Shown here in pieces: positions 3,650 to 45,106 of a stretch of 45,778 nucleotides of DNA (positions are counted from its first letter, which is position 1; the number at the start of each line of letters is the position of its first letter). The notes under the pieces are model-generated. The model did no database searches and was not told the origin of the DNA. It saw only the letters and a program-made list of their open reading frames with translations. Where the stretch lies: positions 1 through 45,778 of the forward strand of contig JAFYWY010000002.1 in the NCBI GenBank assembly GCA_017546455.1. Reading direction: 5' to 3'. The stretch comes from Opitutales bacterium (lineage in GTDB: Bacteria; Verrucomicrobiota; Verrucomicrobiia; Opitutales; UBA953). Both the position numbers and the translations under genes were made by a program.

Positions 3650-4681
3650 TTAGATATTCGACCAGTCGAGGATGACCTTACCCGCCGTGCCGTTGAGCAT
3701 GGCTTCGAAGCCCTTTTCGAATTCGTCGTAACGCAGGTGGTGCGTGATGATCGGCGAAACGTCCATACCCGCCTGAATCAGCGCCATCATCTTGTACCAG
3801 GTTTCGTACATTTCGCGGCCGTAGATACCCTTCATCGTCAGGCCCTTGAAGATGAGCTTGCTCATATCGATCGCCGCGTTGCCCGGCGGAATGCCGAGTT
3901 GAGCGATGCGGCCGCCGCAGGACATCACTTCGAGCATGCCGTTGAGCGCATGGATGTTGCCGGACATTTCACAACCGACGTCAAAGCCTTCCGTCATGCC
4001 GAGCTGAGCCATCACGTCCTTGAGCGACGTATTCATCGTGTTGACGGCGAGCGTCGGGCCCATCTTGCGGGCGAGAGCAAGGCGCGTATCGTTGACGTCG
4101 GTGATTACGACATAACGTGCACCCGCCGCCTTCGCGAGGGCAATTGCCATGATACCGATCGGTCCCGCGCCCGTGATGAGCACGTCTTCGCCGACCATAT
4201 TGAAGGAAAGTGCGGTGTGCGCGGCATTGCCGAGCGGGTCGAGAATCGCAGCGATGTCGTCCGGGATGTCGTCGGCAAGCGGCACGACGTTCTTCGCGGG
4301 AATCGCGAGCAATTCCGCAAACGCACCGGCGCGGTTGACCCCGACGCCCTGCGTGTTCGGGCAGAGGTGGCGGCGGCCGGCGCGGCAGTTACGGCAGTAA
4401 CCGCAAACGATGTGACCTTCGCCGGAAACACGCTGTCCGACCTTGAGGTGGCGGATGTTTTCGCCGACCTTTTCGATGTGGCCGACGTATTCGTGACCGA
4501 CCGTCATCGGCACGGGAATGGTCTTCTGCGACCACTCGTCCCACTTGTAAATGTGCACGTCGGTCCCGCAGATTGCGGTTTTCTTGATGCGAATCAAAAC
4601 GTCATCCGGACCGCAAACGGGTTCGGGAACGTCCATGAGCCACAGACCGGGTTTTGCTTCTTTTTTAACGAGTGCTTTCAT
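3650..4681 (-). CDS. tdh: L-threonine 3-dehydrogenase
   Basis: A 343-residue zinc-dependent medium-chain dehydrogenase that oxidises L-threonine to 2-amino-3-ketobutyrate with NAD+. E. coli Tdh has 341 residues and its key positions coincide: catalytic-zinc Cys38 in AICGTDVH, and His63-Glu64 in VGHEYVG. The structural-zinc cluster (four Cys in the segment [15 protein letters not shown]) is complete near residues 93-107. The Rossmann fold around 165-195 carries GAGPIGIMA. The usual partner kbl (2-amino-3-ketobutyrate CoA ligase) is not next to it. The gene is divergent from the zinc-ribbon protein gene, so both promoters should lie in 4682-4830. Confidence 0.95.
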
Positions 4682-4830
4682 GTTTTTTTAAGAATGTTCG
4701 TTGTTTGGAATTTCACGGAATTTTCCTCGCGTTCCCGCCAAAATGCAACGCGCAAATGCTGTCGCGGGAAAAAACTTGCGCCGCGCCCCGTTCAGGGGAA
4801 GAATTTCGCCCGCAGTCAATTTATCCGATT

Positions 4831-5361
4831 ATGAGCATCCGAATTCAGTGTCCCCAATGCCTCGAAAAATACAGCGCCGGCGAAGAATACATCGGCAAGC
4901 GCTTTGAATGCCGTTGCGGAGCCCTTATTGAAGTCCCGGAACTAAGCGCACTCTTCCCCGCCGCCGAAGCCCAAAAGCCGAGCAAGCCAACGGAAAAATC
5001 CGCTCCGCCGCCTAAGGAGGACGCCGCTAAAAAAACACCTCCCGCTCCCGAAGCCCATTCCACCCCGAAGGCCGCGACGCCCCCGCCCGAAAGCCGACCC
5101 GACCACGTAACACAAACTCCCGGCACCACCATCTACGGATTCCTGGCAGTTTTGTTCGGCACGACGGGACTCCTGGCCTTTCTCGTAACGGTTCTCTTCG
5201 CCTTCAGCGCCGTTTGGCATCCCTTGCTCGGAACAACGGGAAACGACGGCCGCGCCCTGCTCGTCGCCTTTGCTACATTCGCGTTGTCTTTCCTGCTCGC
5301 CGCCCTTTTCCGCCTCACCGACCTCGCCGTCCGCCGTAGCGGAATACGTTGTTTTTTCTAA
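4831..5361 (+). CDS. Zinc-ribbon protein with two C-terminal membrane helices, function unknown
   Basis: I place the start at the ATG at 4831, giving 176 residues; the open frame continues upstream into tdh but without zinc-ribbon or coding character. The N-terminus carries two short cysteine pairs (CPQC at about 7-10 and CRCG at about 31-34), as in small MJ0042-type zinc ribbons. A Pro/Ala/Lys-rich linker of about 60 residues follows, then two strongly hydrophobic segments at about 102-127 and 144-164. This layout (ribbon, linker, membrane pair) is common in uncharacterised PVC proteins. No Shine-Dalgarno sequence is obvious. The role is unknown. Confidence 0.65.
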   Translation: MSIRIQCPQCLEKYSAGEEYIGKRFECRCGALIEVPELSALFPAAEAQKPSKPTEKSAPPPKEDAAKKTPPAPEAHSTPKAATPPPESRPDHVTQTPGTTIYGFLAVLFGTTGLLAFLVTVLFAFSAVWHPLLGTTGNDGRALLVAFATFALSFLLAALFRLTDLAVRRSGIRCFF

Positions 5362-5390
5362 GGCATCTCCGAAGCAGAGATTCTGAAACA

Positions 5391-5469
5391 CTCTCTCGGA
5401 GACACTTGAATTGAAAGTGTGTCATTTTGCATTCCTGCAATTCTCCGTGCCTCTGCGGCTCCGTAAGAA
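5391..5469. repeat. Partial copy of the dispersed palindromic repeat
   Basis: This is the right half of the family also found at 5482, 9117, 12274, 14047 and 14204. It has the inner inverted repeat around AATTGAAAGTGT and the outer right arm CTCCGTGCCTCTGC, but the left outer arm is degenerate. Confidence 0.6.
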
Positions 5470-5481
5470 TTTCTAAACTCC

Positions 5482-5615
5482 CTCTCACGGAAGCACGGAG
5501 CTTCAAGCAACCAATTTCGCCTTTATTCCAAAACACAACCTTCCGAGACACTCGAATTGGAAGTGTGTCGTTTTACACTCCTGCGACGCTCCGTGCCTCT
5601 GCGTCTCCGTGAGAG
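5482..5615. repeat. Dispersed palindromic repeat, full copy (about 134 bp)
   Basis: The outer arms start CTCTCACGGAAGCACGGAG and end CTCTGCGTCTCCGTGAGAG, an imperfect inverted repeat. An inner inverted repeat (TATTCCAA with ATTGGAAG) surrounds TTCCGAGACACTCG. It lies between the zinc-ribbon gene and hisI and has no coding frame of its own. A non-autonomous mobile element or REP-like sequence is likely. Confidence 0.75.
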
Positions 5616-5719
5616 ATTCTAATAATTTAATAATTAATCATTCTTAAATCGGCCAAACTCGCCCGCGTAGGAAATTCTTTTGCCAAGTCCGCGACGGAAA
5701 GGCAAAATGCGTCCCATCT

Positions 5720-6148
5720 ATGAGTAAAGAAATCGAAGAAGGCCTGAAGTTGGACTTTGACTTCACGAAACTGCGCAAAGCCATGGCGCAATGCGAATCC
5801 GATGTCGTCCCCGTCGTTGCCCAAGACGCCGACACCAAGGAAGTTCTGATCGTCGCCTACGCAAACCGCCTCGCCCTCGAAACCGCGCTGAAAGAAGGCA
5901 TGGCCACTTTTTGGAGCACCTCCCGCAATGAGCTGTGGATCAAGGGAAAGACCTCCGGCGACTTCCTGAAGCTCGTCGAAGTTCGCATCAACTGCGAGCA
6001 AAATTCCCTGCTCTACCTCGTCCGCCCGGCCGGAAAAGGCGCCTGCCACACCAAGGGGAAAGACGGCCTGCCGCGCCGCTCGTGCTACTACCGCACGCTC
6101 AATCTTGAGGACGGCGCGACGCTCGCATTCGTCCCCGGAATGGAATAA
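5720..6148 (+). CDS. hisI: Phosphoribosyl-AMP cyclohydrolase-like protein (HisI family)
   Basis: A 142-residue protein matching the cyclohydrolase of histidine synthesis, which opens the purine ring of phosphoribosyl-AMP. The signature FWSTSRNELWIKGKTSGDFL is at about 64-83, and the cysteines at 92, 109 (in ACHT) and 122 (in RSCYYR) are kept. However, the usual DCDxD motif, whose aspartates bind magnesium in characterised HisI, reads NCEQN at 91-95. This may be a stable sub-type with changed metal use or a paralogue with another substrate. There is no fused HisE domain. It sits 18 bp before the uracil-DNA glycosylase gene and is probably co-transcribed with it. Other his genes are absent apart from the HisN-like gene at 21.6 kb. 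Confidence 0.8.
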   Translation: MSKEIEEGLKLDFDFTKLRKAMAQCESDVVPVVAQDADTKEVLIVAYANRLALETALKEGMATFWSTSRNELWIKGKTSGDFLKLVEVRINCEQNSLLYLVRPAGKGACHTKGKDGLPRRSCYYRTLNLEDGATLAFVPGME

Positions 6149-6166
6149 TTTCCGACAATAACACCA

Positions 6167-7090
6167 ATGCGCGACGCCCTCGAAGTCCTGCTCGACACGC
6201 TCCACGCCCTCAAGGAAGACGGCTTGGAACGCGTTGTCGCGGACGACGCCTCGCTCGCGCAACTGCATGCGGCGGTAAAAGCGATGGGCCTTTCCGCAGC
6301 GGCAACGGCACCCGTTCGCAACGAGGCGCCCAAAGCCGCACCGCGCCCGAGTCCCGCGCCCGCCGCAACTTTCCCGTCTGCCAGTGCTCCCGCTACCCCG
6401 GCACGCCCGCCGGCACCGAGCTTTCCGAAACCGCCGACCGTCAAAATTCCCGCCGAGGGAAGCAAGGCGGAGAAACTCGCCGCCGTCGCCGCCCAGATGC
6501 AGGCGGATCCGGTCTGCAACAAGCATTTACACGCCGGAAAAAATCTCGTATTCGGTGACGGCAATCCGGAATCGCCCGTATTTTTCTGCGGCGAAGCTCC
6601 CGGCGCGGAAGAAGAAACGCAAGGCATTCCCTTCGTCGGACCGGCCGGACAATTGCTCGATAAAATCATCGGCGCGACCGGTCTCTCCCGCCGCGATGTC
6701 TATATCGGCAACATCATGAAATGGCGCCCGGAGCTCCCGACGCTCGTCGGCAACCGCCCGCCGACGCCGGAAGAAATGGCCTACTGCCTGCCCTACGTCG
6801 TCGCCCAAATCGAAATCATCCAACCGAAAGTCATCGTCGCGCTCGGACTGACGGCGGTCAACGGCCTGCTCGGCCACGATCCGGACCGCAAAATGGGCGC
6901 TATCCGCGGAAAACAATTCTCGTTCCACGGAGTCCCCGTAATTCCCACCTATCACCCGTCTTATCTGCTTCGCAACGGCACGGCAAAATCCAAGCGCATG
7001 GTTTGGGAAGACTTCCTCGTCATGATGCAGACGCTCGGCATGCCGATCTCCGACAAACAACGCGGCTATTTTCTCCCCAAAAGCGCGTAG
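6167..7090 (+). CDS. Uracil-DNA glycosylase, family 4-like, with Pro/Ala-rich N-terminal extension
   Basis: A 307-residue protein with two parts. Residues 1-45 form a helical segment, about 50-95 are a Pro/Ala-rich linker, and the catalytic domain runs from about 105 to the end. It has motif A GEAPGAEEE (142-150) with the following PFVGPAGQLLDKI, and motif B YHPSYLLRN near the C-terminus. These belong to family 4 enzymes that remove uracil from DNA. Typical family 4 members hold a 4Fe-4S cluster with four cysteines; here the first CxxC is reduced to a single Cys117 and the third position reads KWRP rather than KCRP, so the cluster is probably lost. The gene follows the HisI-like gene by 18 bp. 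Confidence 0.85.
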   Translation: MRDALEVLLDTLHALKEDGLERVVADDASLAQLHAAVKAMGLSAAATAPVRNEAPKAAPRPSPAPAATFPSASAPATPARPPAPSFPKPPTVKIPAEGSKAEKLAAVAAQMQADPVCNKHLHAGKNLVFGDGNPESPVFFCGEAPGAEEETQGIPFVGPAGQLLDKIIGATGLSRRDVYIGNIMKWRPELPTLVGNRPPTPEEMAYCLPYVVAQIEIIQPKVIVALGLTAVNGLLGHDPDRKMGAIRGKQFSFHGVPVIPTYHPSYLLRNGTAKSKRMVWEDFLVMMQTLGMPISDKQRGYFLPKSA

Positions 7091-7147
7091 GGGCTAACGC
7101 CGGTAAATAGAGACCGGTAAATAGTGAATAGAAGCCAGTGACTAGCC

Positions 7148-8710
7148 CTAAAAATAGCTCACGCGACGATCAAGCGAGCGGTAGTGAATGGCTTCGAGTA
7201 AATGCTCGGTCGCAATCCTTTCCGTTCCCGCAATGTCGGCGATAGTCCGCGCCACTTTCAAAACGCGGTCATACGCACGGGCAGAAAGCCCGAGTTGCTC
7301 CATGGCGCGCTGAAGAATCAGACCCTGAGAATCATCAAGCTCGCAATAGCGACGAATTTGGCGTGATGACATGCGCGCATTACAACGCGTTTTCGCCGCC
7401 GACCCCGCCTCCGCATTTTCTCCGTCAAAGCGTTCGCGTTGTCGTTCCCGTGCGACGAGGATGCGCTCCCGCATCACGGCGGAAGACTCCCCCGGAGCGG
7501 CCGTACGCAATTCGTCGATCGACAGTGTCGGCGCCTCGACATGAATATCAATGCGGTCGAGCAATGGCCCGGAAATGCGGGCACGGTAGCGTTGGACCTG
7601 AACGGGCGTACACGCGCATTTGTGCTGTTTGTCGCCGAGATAGCCGCAGGGACAGGGATTCATCGCAGCCACGAGCATAAAGCGTGACGGAATCGTAATT
7701 TTCCCCGCAGCACGGGAAATGCTGACTTCGCCGTCTTCAAGCGGCTGGCGCATTACCTCCAAAGCGGAACGCTTAAATTCCGGAAATTCGTCCAAGAATA
7801 ACACGCCGTTGTGAGCGAGAGAAATTTCACCGGGGCCGGGAATACTTCCGCCGCCGATTAGACCGACATCGGAAATCGTATGGTGCGGCGAACGAAACGG
7901 TCGGCGAATCGTACAATGTTCGTCGGAAAGCGTAATCCCCGCCGCCGAATGGATTCCCAGGATCTCGAGAAATTCTTCCAGAGACGGCTCCGGCAAAATC
8001 GTCGAGATGCGCTTGGCAATCATGCTCTTTCCGGAACCCGGCGAACCGATCATCAGCAAATTGTGCCCGCCCGCAACCGCCACCTCGACGGCACGCCGCA
8101 CCTGCTGCTGCCCCTTCACCTCCGAAAAATCCACTTCCGGCACACGGGACGTATTGCGACGGAAAGCACTGCCCGAAGAAGCGAGGGCCTCAATCTTCAC
8201 AACGCCCAAAAAGAAATCCACGCATTCCCGCAACGAATTCACCGGAAACACTTGGACGCCCTCCACCAGCGCAGCCTCCTCTGCCGACTGCCGAGGCAAC
8301 ACGACCGAGCGATGTTCCCGCAATGCCAAAAGCGCCAGCGATACCCCACCGCGCACGGCACGCACGTCACCGTTCAATCCCAGCTCCCCCGCCACGATAA
8401 ACCCGTTGAGCCGCTCTCGCGGAACCACGCCCTGAGCCGCCAACAACGCCAACGCAATCGGCAAATCGTACATCGGCCCCTCCTTGCGGATATTCCCCGG
8501 CGCAAGATTGACCACCGTCCGGTTATTCGGCGACGGCAAACGGCAGTTGGACAACGCCGCCAACACGCGGTCCGACGCCTCTTTGACGGCCGCATCCGGC
8601 AAACCGACAATCTGAAAACGGAAATCCCCGGGAAGATCGGATTTCACTTCAACCTGAACGGACACAGCCTCAACACCCTGCAAGGCTCCGGAATAAACAG
8701 TGGAAAACAT
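7148..8710 (-). CDS. comM: ComM/YifB family Mg-chelatase-like AAA+ ATPase
   Basis: About 520 residues with the family layout: an N-terminal Lon-protease-like (ChlI) domain beginning [14 protein letters not shown], a central AAA+ domain with Walker A GSPGSGKS at about 222-229 and the LFLDEFPEF Walker B, and a C-terminal Mg_chelatase_C domain. ComM is a hexameric helicase that aids branch migration when incoming DNA recombines during natural transformation. I chose the ATG at 8710 because family members start right there; an in-frame ATG at 8737 would add nine residues. The gene stands alone, convergent with the glycosylase gene. Its presence is of interest because of the uptake-like word described in the findings. 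Confidence 0.92.
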
Positions 8711-9116
8711 AGCTACACAATAGAGAATAAACCTCACATGGCGAAACTAAATTTACCCAAAAGAAAAAAGTAAAAGGTGGATGGCGAACAGAGCCCGGAC
8801 TTCGAGGTCTGATTCTCCTAAAGCCAACCATAGAATTTGCTAAGCGGTAATCATTCGGAATTCGAGATTCACAATTACCTCTTCGAGGCCGTGCGCCGGA
8901 GGTGCACTACATGGGATAACCGCGGGTGCAGACGTAGTCAGAACCCGCGGATAATCCATAAAGCGCCGCAAAATGACAGGCAAAGCTCTGTTTGCGTGCC
9001 TGCGGTGTAACGGAATGAGTTGCGTGTTTTCGCAAAAGCGAATTTCCAGAGCTAGCCTTAAGACGCAACCAGACATAGGTAACACTTTAGAGTCAGAGAA
9101 GGGATTCCGGGATTGT
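8711..9116. other. Non-coding stretch upstream of comM
   Basis: No convincing gene is present. It must contain the comM promoter at its left end. It also holds a hairpin at 8920-8950 (arms CCGCGGGT and ACCCGCGG around a 15-base loop) and the 35-bp inverted repeat at 9065-9099. It looks like decayed mobile-element sequence. Confidence 0.5.
9065..9099 (+). repeat. 35-bp repeat, inverted partner at 16132-16166; probable insertion-sequence end
   Basis: This stretch (starting GCAACCAGACATAGGTAACA) matches the reverse complement of 16132-16166 over all 35 bases. The core TGTTACCTATGTCTGG on the opposite strand resembles terminal repeats of DDE-type insertion sequences, but no transposase gene is present. 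Confidence 0.65.
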
Positions 9117-9260
9117 CTCTCGCGGAGACGCAGGGGCACGGAGGCTCAAGCGACATCCACCGTTTCCATTCCAAAGCTATCCCCTCCCCCAAAAAATTCG
9201 AATTGGAAGCGTAACCATTGGCTCTCCCGCGATGCTCCGTGGCTCTGTGCCTCCGTGAGA
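9117..9260. repeat. Dispersed palindromic repeat, full copy (about 144 bp)
   Basis: The left arm CTCTCGCGGAGACGCAGGGG and the right arm CTCTGTGCCTCCGTGAGA pair imperfectly. The inner arms are CATTCCAAAG and AATTGGAAG. It belongs to the same family as the copy at 5482. Confidence 0.75.
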
Positions 9261-9390
9261 AATACTGCCTGCAGAAAAAGGATCTGAGATCGGTGAAACG
9301 AAACCATTCACCTATTCACCGCAACCGCTCATTCCTCTTTACCATTCTTCTTTCCTTCTGTGCGGCAAGAGCGTATCTTTCGCCGAAAAC

Positions 9391-10317
9391 ATGACAAAAG
9401 AGCGTACCATCGGCCACCTACTGATTTTCGCATCGGCGTTGATTTTTGCCCTCAACTACCCGATTTCGAAATGGCTTTTGTCCAATCACCTCACCCCCGA
9501 TTTCTACCTCTCCGCCCGTCTCCTCGTCTCCTGCATCCTGTTCTGGGGACTCTCGCTTTTCCTGCCCGCCGAACCGCTTTCCCGCAAAGAAATCGGCATC
9601 TTTTTTCTCTGCTCCCTCGGCGGCATCACGGGCAACCAATTCCTCTTTGTTTGGGGGCTGGCGCAAACTTCGCCGATTGATGCCTCCGTCATCATGACGG
9701 CACGCCCGCTCCTCGTACTCCTCCTCTCCGCACTGATTCTGCGCGAAGCCGTCACACGGCACAAAACACTCGGCGTCCTGCTCGGCGCAACGGGAGCCAC
9801 CTGGCTCATTCTTCAATCCGCCGCCCCCGACAACGCCAACACCACATCGAGCCTGCTCGGCAACCTCCTCGTCTTCGGCAGCGGCATCGTTTACGCCCTC
9901 TACTTCGTATTTTCCAAACCGCTCTCGGAAAAATACCGGGCAACGACGATGATGAAATGGATGTTCCTCTTCGCCGCTCTGCAAGTTCTCCCGTTCACGA
10001 TTCCCGCCATCGCCGCAAGCGATACACTCCTACTCGCCCCGCTCGACGCCAAAGCCTGGGCAGCCATGGCGTTTGTCTTTATCGGCACCTCCTTCCTGGG
10101 CTACCTGCTAATCCCGATGGCCGTGCGCCGCATCCGCCCGACAACCGCCAGCATGTACAACACCCTCCACCCGATCGTCGCCTTTATCCTTGCCGCCCTG
10201 CTCGCTCAAGACGTCATTACTCCGGAAAAAATCCTGGCAACGCTCGCCGTCATCAGCGGACTCTACATCGTCACCCGCAGCGAATCGCGGGAACTCACGA
10301 CCCGAAACCATGACTAA
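9391..10317 (+). CDS. EamA/DMT-family transporter (copy 1)
   Basis: A 308-residue, very hydrophobic protein with about ten predicted transmembrane helices in two EamA repeats (about 8-140 and 155-300). This is the usual size and shape of drug/metabolite exporters. These inner-membrane carriers move amino acids, nucleosides or other metabolites; the substrate cannot be read from sequence. It is followed directly by a closely similar paralogue whose start overlaps its stop codon. Shared features include GHLLIFA and NYPISKWLL at the N-terminus and SPIDASVI in helix 4. The pair therefore arose by tandem duplication and is probably translated in a coupled way. Confidence 0.88.
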   Translation: MTKERTIGHLLIFASALIFALNYPISKWLLSNHLTPDFYLSARLLVSCILFWGLSLFLPAEPLSRKEIGIFFLCSLGGITGNQFLFVWGLAQTSPIDASVIMTARPLLVLLLSALILREAVTRHKTLGVLLGATGATWLILQSAAPDNANTTSSLLGNLLVFGSGIVYALYFVFSKPLSEKYRATTMMKWMFLFAALQVLPFTIPAIAASDTLLLAPLDAKAWAAMAFVFIGTSFLGYLLIPMAVRRIRPTTASMYNTLHPIVAFILAALLAQDVITPEKILATLAVISGLYIVTRSESRELTTRNHD

Positions 10318-41934: not shown

Positions 41935-41972
41935 GCTTCGGCGAAACAAAGCGTATTTTCCGAACAACAAAC

Positions 41973-42006
41973 AAAAATCCCTTGCAGTTTTCGCAAGGGA
42001 TTTTTT
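41973..42006. terminator. Bidirectional terminator between cysK and the metallo-hydrolase gene
   Basis: The arms AAAAATCCCTTGC and GCAAGGGATTTTT form a 13-bp stem with a 7-base loop. It stops both convergent transcripts; the minus-strand stop codon at 42005 overlaps its right edge. Confidence 0.9.
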
Positions 42007-43183
42007 ACAGGGAAACTTCTTCGCCGTCATCCGGAAGCAGGATTTTTGTATCCGGGCAAAGCTCTTTCAGCACTTCCGGTTTTTCACTGTGCATCGGAAT
42101 TACGACGTCAGGTTTTGTGATTTCGATAAGTTCTTTTATTGCCTCATGCGACGCGTGCCCGCTTGTATGCAATTTTTCCCATTGCCCGGTAAGTTTCAAA
42201 AATTCGGGTATTTTGCTTTCCGGTTTCGTAAGGTAGCCGCTCCACATCGAATACAGGATAATGCTTTTTCCCGAATCGAATTTTTTGATGATTTCTTCAA
42301 ATTTTCGGTTGGCTCGTACGACCATTAAGCCGCCGCGAGCTTCTATTTTTTTCTGAATATTATCGCCGTATTCTACGACTTTGAGATTTCGATAAAGTTC
42401 GGAATATTCGCTCCAGTGATGCGTCAATAAATCAAGCAAGCGTTTCTGGTATGCATCGCAGAGAAAATATTTTCCGCGCGGCACTGCTTTCGACAAAGCG
42501 CAAATGCGTTCCAAATTCGTAGATGCACAAAGAACGAAAACGTATTTGTAGTCTCGGAGGTACTGCCTCACTTTTTGTTGAAGGTCCCGCTCGCTCATCG
42601 CGGGAACGGCATTCGAACGAGAAAGCGTTGTGCCTTCCGTTACGAGCGCATCAACTCTCCCGACTTTGCGCCAGATTTTGGGAAGTGCCTTCCCGCGAAA
42701 CCCGTGCGTACGAAAATCGCCGGTGTAAAGCAGGCGTTTTCCGTTTGCTTCGATTAAAAACGTGTAGCTGTCGCACGCAGAATGATCGATGGAATAAGGC
42801 ATGATTCGGATATCGCCGATTTGGATTTCTTTCCCGTCCTTAAAGGTTTGAATTTTTTGAAATTTTTCGAGAAGAGCATCATCATTCCGTTTTTTTGCGA
42901 CTTCGAGCATGACATCTTTTGCCAGCGCTCCCGCATAAAGCGGAACGTCGTCACGAATACGTATCATTTGTCCGACGTGATCGCCATGATAATGCGTGAA
43001 AAACACCGCATTGCAAGCACCGTTCCCGTCGGTTACGCCGGGGATGTTCAAATCGGCGGGAACAAAATTCGGATCGAGCGAAAGCTCGTTGCCCATATCA
43101 ATTATAATTCGGGTATTTCCGCTTCGAATCTCTGTCGCAATCCCGCCAATTTGATGCGTGCCTCTATGGATGGTGATCACCAT
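42005..43183 (-). CDS. RNase J-like metallo-beta-lactamase/beta-CASP hydrolase
   Basis: About 392 residues, with a start at the ATG at 43183 (beginning MVITIHRGTHQIGG) or a GTG four codons earlier. The lactamase fold carries THYHGDHVG at about 63-71, DHSACDSYTF, and YTGDFRTHG; the beta-CASP insert spans roughly 195-335, followed by TSGHAS and IPMHSEKP. All zinc ligands of RNase J/CPSF73-type nucleases appear to be kept, so RNase or DNase activity is expected. It is far shorter than RNase J (about 550) because the C-terminal domain is missing. The start overlaps the end of the nuclease-like gene upstream, showing translational coupling. Base composition is lower in GC than in surrounding genes. 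Confidence 0.85.
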   Translation of the reverse strand: MVITIHRGTHQIGGIATEIRSGNTRIIIDMGNELSLDPNFVPADLNIPGVTDGNGACNAVFFTHYHGDHVGQMIRIRDDVPLYAGALAKDVMLEVAKKRNDDALLEKFQKIQTFKDGKEIQIGDIRIMPYSIDHSACDSYTFLIEANGKRLLYTGDFRTHGFRGKALPKIWRKVGRVDALVTEGTTLSRSNAVPAMSERDLQQKVRQYLRDYKYVFVLCASTNLERICALSKAVPRGKYFLCDAYQKRLLDLLTHHWSEYSELYRNLKVVEYGDNIQKKIEARGGLMVVRANRKFEEIIKKFDSGKSIILYSMWSGYLTKPESKIPEFLKLTGQWEKLHTSGHASHEAIKELIEITKPDVVIPMHSEKPEVLKELCPDTKILLPDDGEEVSL

Positions 43184-43998
43184 TTTCGGGTACACTCATT
43201 TATTTCATAGGTTTCACCGACTTTACTAATTTCAAAAAATTTGAACCTCGGGTTTGAATATTCGGGCTGTCTTTCACGCATATTTTTTTCTAGCGCTCCA
43301 ATTAGTTTTGCCAGGTTCGGTCTATTTCCCTCGTTAAGCTCTTCATACTCGTTGTGAGGGAGGCTACCCTTAAAAATGAGAATCGCCGGTATAATGGTAA
43401 GCCCTTGATTGGTTTCTAACTTTTTAACAAAGTTCTTAATAAATTTTTCATGATCCAACTGACACCAATAAGTATATATTTCCAAAATACACCGCAAAAG
43501 AGTTTCAGTGGAGCTATCTTTTTTAAGCTCCAGCAAATAGACTTCCTTTTTTGATGAATCTTTTGCTGTTGCAACTAAATCAATTTTCCCGACTCCTCTA
43601 TCACTTTGCCCCCCCTTAAGCGGGATTTGATAACCCATGACACAGAAATCACATTCTACTTTTATGTCAGAATTTTCGGGTTCGTTGTGCGCTTTAGCCA
43701 GCCTAATCGCAAATTTCTCTTCTTTACGATTTGAGTCCGGATTAATCTTGTATTCATGTTTTAAGGCGTAAGGTTCTGATCTCTTTACGACTTCAATATT
43801 TTTTAGTGCCGCCAAATAGCAACTTTCTAAAAGTTTCTCTGCTATGACCTCGGAATAAGGTCTTTCGGAGTCGGTTGGTTTTCCACGCCAATTCACACAA
43901 TTATTTTTGTAAAGCGTTTTGGCCCATTTGACACTGTCGTTATCAAATCCTTCTAATAGTTCTTTAATTGTTGTTTCCTCTCCGTGCTTTATCGACAT
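43177..43998 (-). CDS. PD-(D/E)XK nuclease-like protein of unknown system
   Basis: 273 residues that match no family I can name, but with a clear nuclease-like core: GKIDLV (Asp140) followed by VYLLELKK (Glu157, Lys159), the D-x16-ExK spacing of the PD-(D/E)XK superfamily, with a possible upstream Glu50 in YSEVIAEKLL. The protein is charged and rich in Lys, Glu and Asn, with an AT-rich coding sequence unlike its neighbours, suggesting horizontal transfer. A Shine-Dalgarno AAAGGA precedes the ATG. Its last codons overlap the start of the beta-CASP hydrolase gene by 7 bp, so the two proteins are probably made together and may form one defence or mobile-element system. Confidence 0.7.
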   Translation of the reverse strand: MSIKHGEETTIKELLEGFDNDSVKWAKTLYKNNCVNWRGKPTDSERPYSEVIAEKLLESCYLAALKNIEVVKRSEPYALKHEYKINPDSNRKEEKFAIRLAKAHNEPENSDIKVECDFCVMGYQIPLKGGQSDRGVGKIDLVATAKDSSKKEVYLLELKKDSSTETLLRCILEIYTYWCQLDHEKFIKNFVKKLETNQGLTIIPAILIFKGSLPHNEYEELNEGNRPNLAKLIGALEKNMRERQPEYSNPRFKFFEISKVGETYEINECTRKW

Positions 43999-44077
43999 TT
44001 TATTCCTTTCTGTGTGTGCTTTTTTGATGTATTTTACAACCGCTTCCTCCGCGAAAGCAACTGCAGAGGATTTTAGC

Positions 44078-44839
44078 TTACTTCCGCCTGTTTTTCCAGT
44101 CTCCGCCTTTAATGACGGAAGAAGATTCGGGAAGCGAGTTCATGATATAAACCCAACCGAGAGCTTCGGCACCATCCGGCAGTTTTGCGGAAAGTACGCT
44201 TCGATTATAGAAATCCGGATAGCCTTCAAGGGCATCCACGGCATTCCAATCGCGAAGCGGAAGCTCGATAAGTTCGGCTTTTACGGTGTTCGTTCCGTAG
44301 GGTGAAAAAGCGGGAAATCCGTAGCCGGTGTCGTATAGCGTTCCCGTGATTGTGCACGGCGTAATGCGAATAGCGTTTCGGCAGAATCGGTGATTCCGTT
44401 CTCCCGACATCAGTGTTCCGTAAACGATAAACTTAACCGTCGAAAATCCGTTTTTGACGCCGTAATAATCGGCTCCGTCGGAACAAATTTTTTGGTAGGT
44501 TTTGTCGTAAAGCTTTCCGGTTCGCCGGGTTTTTGTTTCTAGTGTTTGTTCGTAAGCGATTGCCTGGTAAATCTGTCCGTCACATTCGACATCAACTAAG
44601 ATACGCTTGTAAACATCCGGACAGCCTTCGTAGTAATCCAGATTTTGAAGATGTTCCGTCGAGACGGAATAGAGAACGCCTCCCGTTTCCGCGCCCTTTT
44701 CAAAATCAATGTCCGCGTATAAGCGTTCCGCCAATCGGTAGTTTCGAAGAAGCGCCTTACCGAGAGCAACTGCGCCCGGGCAACGCTCTTGCATTCGGGT
44801 CGGGTTCATATTGGAGCCGTAAGCAAAGTAGTGAATCAT
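44078..44839 (-). CDS. Double-domain gamma-glutamylcyclotransferase-like protein
   Basis: I start at the ATG at 44839, which gives 253 residues beginning MIHYFAYGSNM; the longer open frame is not family-like. It holds two GGCT/AIG2-fold domains in tandem. Domain 1 has the phosphate-like loop YGSN at 7-10 and a catalytic Glu71 in LDYYEG; domain 2 has YGTL at 140-143 and Glu205 in VDALEG. Both Glu are kept, so both may be active. Single-domain relatives release 5-oxoproline from gamma-glutamyl peptides or gamma-glutamylamines. It lies upstream of the nuclease-like gene on the same strand (79 bp gap) and shares its lower GC. Confidence 0.82.
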   Translation of the reverse strand: MIHYFAYGSNMNPTRMQERCPGAVALGKALLRNYRLAERLYADIDFEKGAETGGVLYSVSTEHLQNLDYYEGCPDVYKRILVDVECDGQIYQAIAYEQTLETKTRRTGKLYDKTYQKICSDGADYYGVKNGFSTVKFIVYGTLMSGERNHRFCRNAIRITPCTITGTLYDTGYGFPAFSPYGTNTVKAELIELPLRDWNAVDALEGYPDFYNRSVLSAKLPDGAEALGWVYIMNSLPESSSVIKGGDWKNRRK

Positions 44840-44954
44840 AGAAGCAATTCTATCAACGATGTGAATTTTTAAACAGGGCGAGATTTGTCCACATATTACT
44901 TCACTTGAAAAATCATTGTCTGACTTAAAATATTGCGCATAAAAAAATGAATGC

Positions 44955-45077
44955 ATGCGCCGAAGCGATTTCGTTCTTCCCGGCATGGTGCGCGTCAGCT
45001 TCGGGATTTACAACGACGAATCCGATGTCGATGCCCTACTCGAGTGCATCCGACAAATCGTCGCCGAAAAGAAATAG
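44955..45077 (+). pseudogene. Relic: C-terminal tail of a class V aminotransferase (cysteine-desulfurase type)
   Basis: A 40-codon plus-strand frame ends RRSDFVLPGMVRVSFGIYN and then DESDVDALLECIRQIVAEKK before a stop. This is the usual end of class V aminotransferases such as cysteine desulfurases (VRVSFGIYNTEEDVDAL pattern). Everything upstream, including the PLP site, is gone, and the sequence becomes AT-rich and belongs to the GGCT gene region. A terminator of the host type follows at 45107. The rest was most likely replaced by the AT-rich block at 42.0-44.9 kb. Confidence 0.7.
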
Positions 45078-45106
45078 TTTTCCGAAAAATTAAAATCCGG
45101 AAATTT

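Follow-up and report, generated by a model that had tools for sequence, protein, structure and literature searches.

In the window, by which we mean the whole 45,778-nucleotide stretch of Opitutales DNA analysed here, a predicted PD-(D/E)XK nuclease gene overlaps the gene of a short, RNase J-like beta-CASP metallo-hydrolase (Table 1). Relatives of the hydrolase in distant bacteria, plasmids and viral contigs almost always stand beside a PD-(D/E)XK-like gene, and it is nearly certain that the hydrolase and such a partner form a functional unit. From sequence comparison, the unit consists of a constant hydrolase and a swappable PD-(D/E)XK nuclease, and the window carries one version of it. We infer from genomic context that this modular two-component nuclease system has a role in defence, a reading to which we assign a probability of about 0.6.

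Table 1. Features of the nuclease-hydrolase locus in the window
Feature	Positions	Strand	Basis
Predicted PD-(D/E)XK nuclease (partner gene)	43177-43998	-	273 aa ORF; active site D140, E157, K159
RNase J-like beta-CASP metallo-hydrolase (constant gene)	42005-43195	-	396 aa ORF, motifs, Pfam matches
Nuclease stop / hydrolase start overlap	43177-43195	-	Sequence
Intrinsic terminator-like hairpin ending the pair	41973-42005	-	14-pair stem and T-rich tail
AT-rich segment with the pair and a gamma-glutamyl cyclotransferase gene	41935-45080	.	GC 0.40-0.47 vs about 0.56 for most of the window

The nuclease is the upstream gene of the pair, and its TGA stop (43179-43177) lies inside the hydrolase ORF. 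Counted from the hydrolase GTG at 43195, the overlap is 19 nt, and counted from the ATG at 43183, which is favoured by homologues and is likely the true start, it is 7 nt (ATGGTGA). This overlap of stop and start makes translational coupling of the two genes likely. The first-pass annotation had described the overlapping ORFs, the AT-richness of the pair and the terminator at its end, and all of these hold: the pair has a GC content of 0.40-0.46, whereas most of the window is at about 0.56, and the strong terminator-like hairpin, which also faces the convergent cysK gene, stands out from the remaining, weaker hairpins, which are at chance level. The pair is flanked by cysK and a gamma-glutamyl cyclotransferase gene, and the other window genes are mostly housekeeping genes, so the window copy does not lie in a clear defence island.

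The two-domain cyclotransferase gene (44078-44986) shares the AT-rich segment with the pair, and in PHROGs it is matched best by a family of phage accessory genes. We considered it as a third component and rejected it, because it was not seen beside the other pairs inspected. The pair had also been proposed to occupy a site where a resident gene was cut off, a proposal that finds weak support. A 40-residue remnant on the plus strand (44955-45074) does resemble the C terminus of a class V aminotransferase (Aminotran_5, a Pfam match below cutoff at E=0.0023), but some 1 kb and the intact cyclotransferase gene separate it from the pair, and the related genomes examined contain no clean empty insertion site, their gene order after cysK differing from that of the window. 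The window nuclease was not found in 7 same-genus and 29 other same-family genomes, and the hydrolase matches in these genomes are weak fragments, with one weak match within the 7 same-genus genomes. On these grounds, the pair appears to be a patchy acquisition in this lineage.

The hydrolase matches Lactamase_B_2 (7.8e-14) and RMMBL (4.8e-6, above cutoff) in Pfam, and it has the features that define beta-CASP enzymes, namely an HxHxDH motif with downstream His and Asp and the motifs A, B and C. Across 21 aligned hydrolase relatives, the zinc ligands H68, H70, D72 and H73 (HxHxDH), H138 and D160 are invariant, as are E187 of motif A, the SGH of motif B (H347) and H369 of motif C. This invariance suggests that catalysis is under selection. 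Among beta-CASP enzymes, motif C carries His in RNA-type and Val in DNA-type members, by which H369 would be an RNA-type residue. The protein is not an RNase J proper, since it scores far under the NCBIfam cutoffs for that family (67 bits versus 400 for TIGR00649, 65 versus 820 for NF047419) and, at 396 aa compared with about 550 for RNase J, has no room for the RNase J C-terminal domain; this is in agreement with the earlier description of a short RNase J-like protein with complete zinc motifs that lacks this domain. The nearest solved sequence is that of PDB 2az4 (EF2904; 3.7e-17), with RNase J structures next. We considered the EF2904-like hydrolases as members of the same family and set them apart; the plasmid example (OL539428) sits on a long tree branch and is in an ABC transporter operon, not beside a PD-(D/E)XK gene.

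The window nuclease has no significant family match in Pfam, NCBIfam, PADLOC or PHROGs, and PADLOC has no model for either protein of the pair. All 12 relatives in the alignment keep its D140, E157 and K159, so that the proposed triad is retained in homologues, and the ExK is followed by an 'LEIYTY' helix. The AlphaFold model of the protein (pLDDT 82, pTM 0.87, from a seven-sequence alignment) was compared with PDB structures, and the comparison is headed by Upx, NucS/EndoMS, XisH, PaqCI, FokI, AF1548, Can2 and McrC, mostly PD-(D/E)XK enzymes. The Z scores are modest (5.5 for the window protein, with values of about 5 in the list), but a single fold dominates the list, and the fold assignment rests also on the motif. 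Together, the modelled core fold and the invariant D...(D/E)xK triad fit a predicted PD-(D/E)XK nuclease, as the first-pass annotation had suggested.

Searches of viral, phage and plasmid sequences with the window nuclease as sole query returned no matches. The nuclease is too divergent to serve as a query, and the hydrolase was therefore used as bait. With the hydrolase as sole query, a set of 84,980 species genomes yielded at least 26 full-length members (L028-L053), and reading of their neighbours placed a PD-(D/E)XK-like gene beside nearly all of them. Plasmid matches added nine further loci, most with a PD-(D/E)XK-like partner, and viral contigs added three more distinct loci (L095, L096 and L098), all three with a partner. 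Furthermore, an independent sample of 398 Bacillota genomes, for which the hydrolase profile was the sole query, contained 8 further members, in about 2% of the sampled genomes, and a partner was present in 8 of 8. The loci span Bacillota, Bacteroidota, Pseudomonadota, Verrucomicrobiota, plasmids and viral contigs, and the hydrolase family is missing from nearly all relatives of its hosts.

Among the matches listed, a PD-(D/E)XK-like gene is the direct neighbour of the hydrolase, or separated from it by a single gene, at 45 of 48 loci; the partnerless loci are L030, L059 and L068. Since partners outside the larger groups were identified by motif reading, we also ran a strict D..ExK motif test, which finds an adjacent match at 31 of 39 loci and is passed by 34 of 67 adjacent genes versus 10 of the 267 remaining genes of these loci (Fisher p=3e-19). 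The two genes are mostly overlapping or within 30 nt of each other; for 36 pairs that were tabulated, the gap has a median of 2.5 nt, 17 pairs overlap, and 34 are on the same strand, where the partner precedes the hydrolase in 24 and follows it in 10. Convergent pairs occur at L047 and in the same-order relative G052 (L003), where the stops overlap. The conservation survey that the first-pass annotation had set in advance thus finds the pairing kept across phyla, with two amendments. The exact pair is not the conserved unit: the hydrolase is the constant core, and its partner comes from any of many PD-(D/E)XK families. Likewise, the association is strong when seen from the hydrolase, whose loci are nearly all paired, but the window-type nuclease also occurs without it, at L025-L027 in the same phylum and at L112 in Bacillota. 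The hydrolase would therefore depend on a nuclease partner, whereas the window-type nuclease can work in other settings.

Several of these settings have features of their own. At L025-L027, the window-type nuclease adjoins a different PD-(D/E)XK-like gene (motif recognised by eye), and a trio recurs at all three loci, comprising the window-type nuclease, an 'IAVE(A/G)K' protein with a weak DUF6946 match and a small 'RYKTLMRYKRLW' protein; this three-gene set is possibly another undescribed system. The L026 copy (4272-10272), a relative without hydrolase, lies between apparent genes for the RNA cyclase RtcA and the RNA ligase RtcB, a position that suggests a possible connection to RNA damage and repair. 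At L114 (276-2575), a shortened window-type nuclease stands behind an HTH regulator resembling that of L095 and precedes what looks like a VapBC toxin-antitoxin gene pair.

The partner proteins tested from the first loci fall into 13 phmmer groups, a few of which are joined by weaker profile matches. In the largest partner set, R36, Y43, E113, D129, E131, D145, E158 and K160 are invariant, and the model of its representative from L043 (pLDDT 84.5) has a core that structural comparison identifies as PD-(D/E)XK (Upx Z 8.7, NucS Z 8.4, then HamA, Can2 and SduA). The profile of this set aligns with the window nuclease family across the nuclease core (E 0.0016, at a probability of only 16%). In this commonest partner (L043, 5155-5982), the part N-terminal to the core is similar to frataxin folds (Z about 6.5). 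For ten representative partners, no Pfam or PADLOC family scores above cutoff, and the partner alignments, used as profile queries against the PDB, yielded no useful match. On the maximum-likelihood tree of the hydrolase, partner labels change 16 times, versus a minimum of 6, and the window-type partner alone needs at least 4 changes; indeed, the close relatives L033 and L034, and L044 and L049, have differing partner sets. These repeated changes, together with the 13 partner groups, argue that the hydrolase is held constant while the nuclease is exchanged.

WYL-domain proteins, which are known from several defence loci, account for nine neighbours of the pairs in Pfam. PADLOC matches near the pairs, many of them strong, include type IIG restriction enzymes, AbiL, RT UG29, SoFic, HEC-06, PDC-M12A/B, PDC-S10 and others, whereas a control of 67 genes contains eight mostly weak PADLOC families; this control contains fewer genes than the set of neighbours and is not taxon-matched, and the enrichment is thus indicative only. 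Enrichment near defence genes, which had been named beforehand as a test, is found in this form, with many more defence-family matches and WYL regulators than in the rough control. One plasmid locus adjoins a restriction-methylase gene pair and another adjoins DUF262 genes, the L096 pair lies among phage tail-like genes, the L098 pair is beside a serine recombinase (read by eye), and many Lachnospiraceae copies adjoin replication genes. The neighbourhood looks like mobile defence cargo; the Lachnospiraceae replication genes would also suit a maintenance role. At L040, L059 and L065, the hydrolase gene overlaps at its end with a downstream gene for a calcineurin-like metallophosphoesterase, and on the alphaproteobacterial plasmids L061, L063, L064 and L068 the hydrolase has as its neighbour a conserved small 'IFW' protein (about 124-158 aa).

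In the defence reading, the system would protect its carrier from phages, plasmids and other foreign DNA. Recognition and cutting of the invader DNA would fall to the variable PD-(D/E)XK protein, and we propose that it diversifies because of this recognition. The hydrolase, with its RNA-type His at motif C, would then degrade RNA of the invader or of the host; less likely, it would trim the cut DNA ends. Co-translation may keep the two enzymes in balance. A more specific form of this proposal, which we put forward tentatively and hold to be somewhat improbable as a whole, is a combinatorial immune class in which a fixed beta-CASP ribonuclease effector serves many dissimilar PD-(D/E)XK DNA-cutting sensors, so that cleavage of invader DNA is coupled to destruction of RNA.

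The same enzymes might instead process broken or stalled DNA or RNA on behalf of a carrier plasmid or phage. Such a repair or replication-maintenance module would suit the position of several copies, in Lachnospiraceae and on plasmids, close to genes for replication or recombination and the presence of EndoMS/NucS among the top structural matches, and beta-CASP enzymes include DNA-repair nucleases. It is nevertheless unlikely, given that repeated swapping of nuclease families and very patchy presence are unusual for repair and that motif C carries the RNA-type residue. The first-pass annotation had offered anti-phage defence and a toxin-like module side by side; context supports defence, inferred as above, and the toxin-antitoxin or addiction alternative becomes a lesser rival. 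Here one enzyme would be toxic alone and the other would neutralise it or its product, as might be read from the overlapping two-gene layout, the plasmid carriage and the decayed copies at L094 and L114. Full active sites are kept in both components, however, the gene order varies and is convergent at L003 and L047, unlike the antitoxin-first order of classical modules, and one antitoxin for 13 dissimilar nuclease groups would be odd, all of which makes this quite improbable.

The pairs on plasmids and viral contigs, in particular the L096 pair between tail-like genes, raise the question of whether the system serves mobile elements in counter-defence or competition, for example by destroying nucleic acids or signals of the host or of rival elements, and phages do use other nucleases to disarm signalling defences (PMC9117128). 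Most copies, though, are in genome contigs with no clear adjoining phage genes, and several adjoin WYL regulators like those found in defence loci; we regard this role as very improbable. That an ordinary RNA-processing hydrolase has its nuclease neighbours by chance has in its favour the RNase J-like sequence and the EF2904-like relative in a transporter operon, yet the statistics of the pairing (p=3e-19; all 8 members of the independent sample paired) already contradict it, the absence of the family from nearly all relatives of its hosts also speaks against it, and it deserves next to no weight.

Full-text literature searches, whose scope left out most preprints and subscription papers, found no description of the pair, in line with the earlier remark that no known defence system of this composition could be named, and the main text on DefensePredictor mentions no beta-lactamase-fold system (PMC13092281). 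If confirmed, the defence role would add a system missed by current catalogues, presumably because no tested partner has a significant Pfam or PADLOC model. It would also provide a clear case of immune modularity, in which one enzyme is kept and its nuclease partner is replaced again and again, and it would give an RNase J-type ribonuclease an immune role outside CRISPR.

With RNase J and related beta-CASP ribonucleases (COG0595-like), the hydrolase has in common the zinc-ligand motifs, the beta-CASP insert, the SGH of motif B and the His of motif C; unlike RNase J, it lacks the C-terminal domain and is a patchy accessory gene paired with a PD-(D/E)XK gene. The window nuclease shares its core fold and D..ExK site with Shedu SduA, HamA, LmuA, Can2/Card1 and Upx, which are among the top structural matches, although none of them matches it as a sequence family; SduA is a match in fold only, with no DUF4263 match in Pfam or PADLOC. 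We know of no PD-(D/E)XK defence nuclease of this set that is paired with a beta-CASP hydrolase. In type VII CRISPR, Cas14 is a beta-CASP effector nuclease used in immunity (PMC12669027), and the hydrolase is likewise of beta-CASP type; unlike Cas14, it scores 10.8 bits against the NCBIfam Cas14 model (cutoff 800), and no Cas proteins were noticed beside the pair. Trypsin-MBL and HamM arrangements have a protease partner, whereas the window neighbours are cysK and the cyclotransferase and the partners at other loci are PD-(D/E)XK-like. In the nuclease-protease pairs, a ComEC-like MBL nuclease is activated by cleavage by its protease partner (PMC12799240); in the present system the hydrolase is of beta-CASP type, the partner is a nuclease, and no protease is seen. 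These MBL and trypsin/caspase pairs of Hachiman, AVAST, Lamassu and canu (PMC12799240) are nonetheless the nearest known arrangement, in that they too combine an MBL-fold nuclease with varied immune partners.
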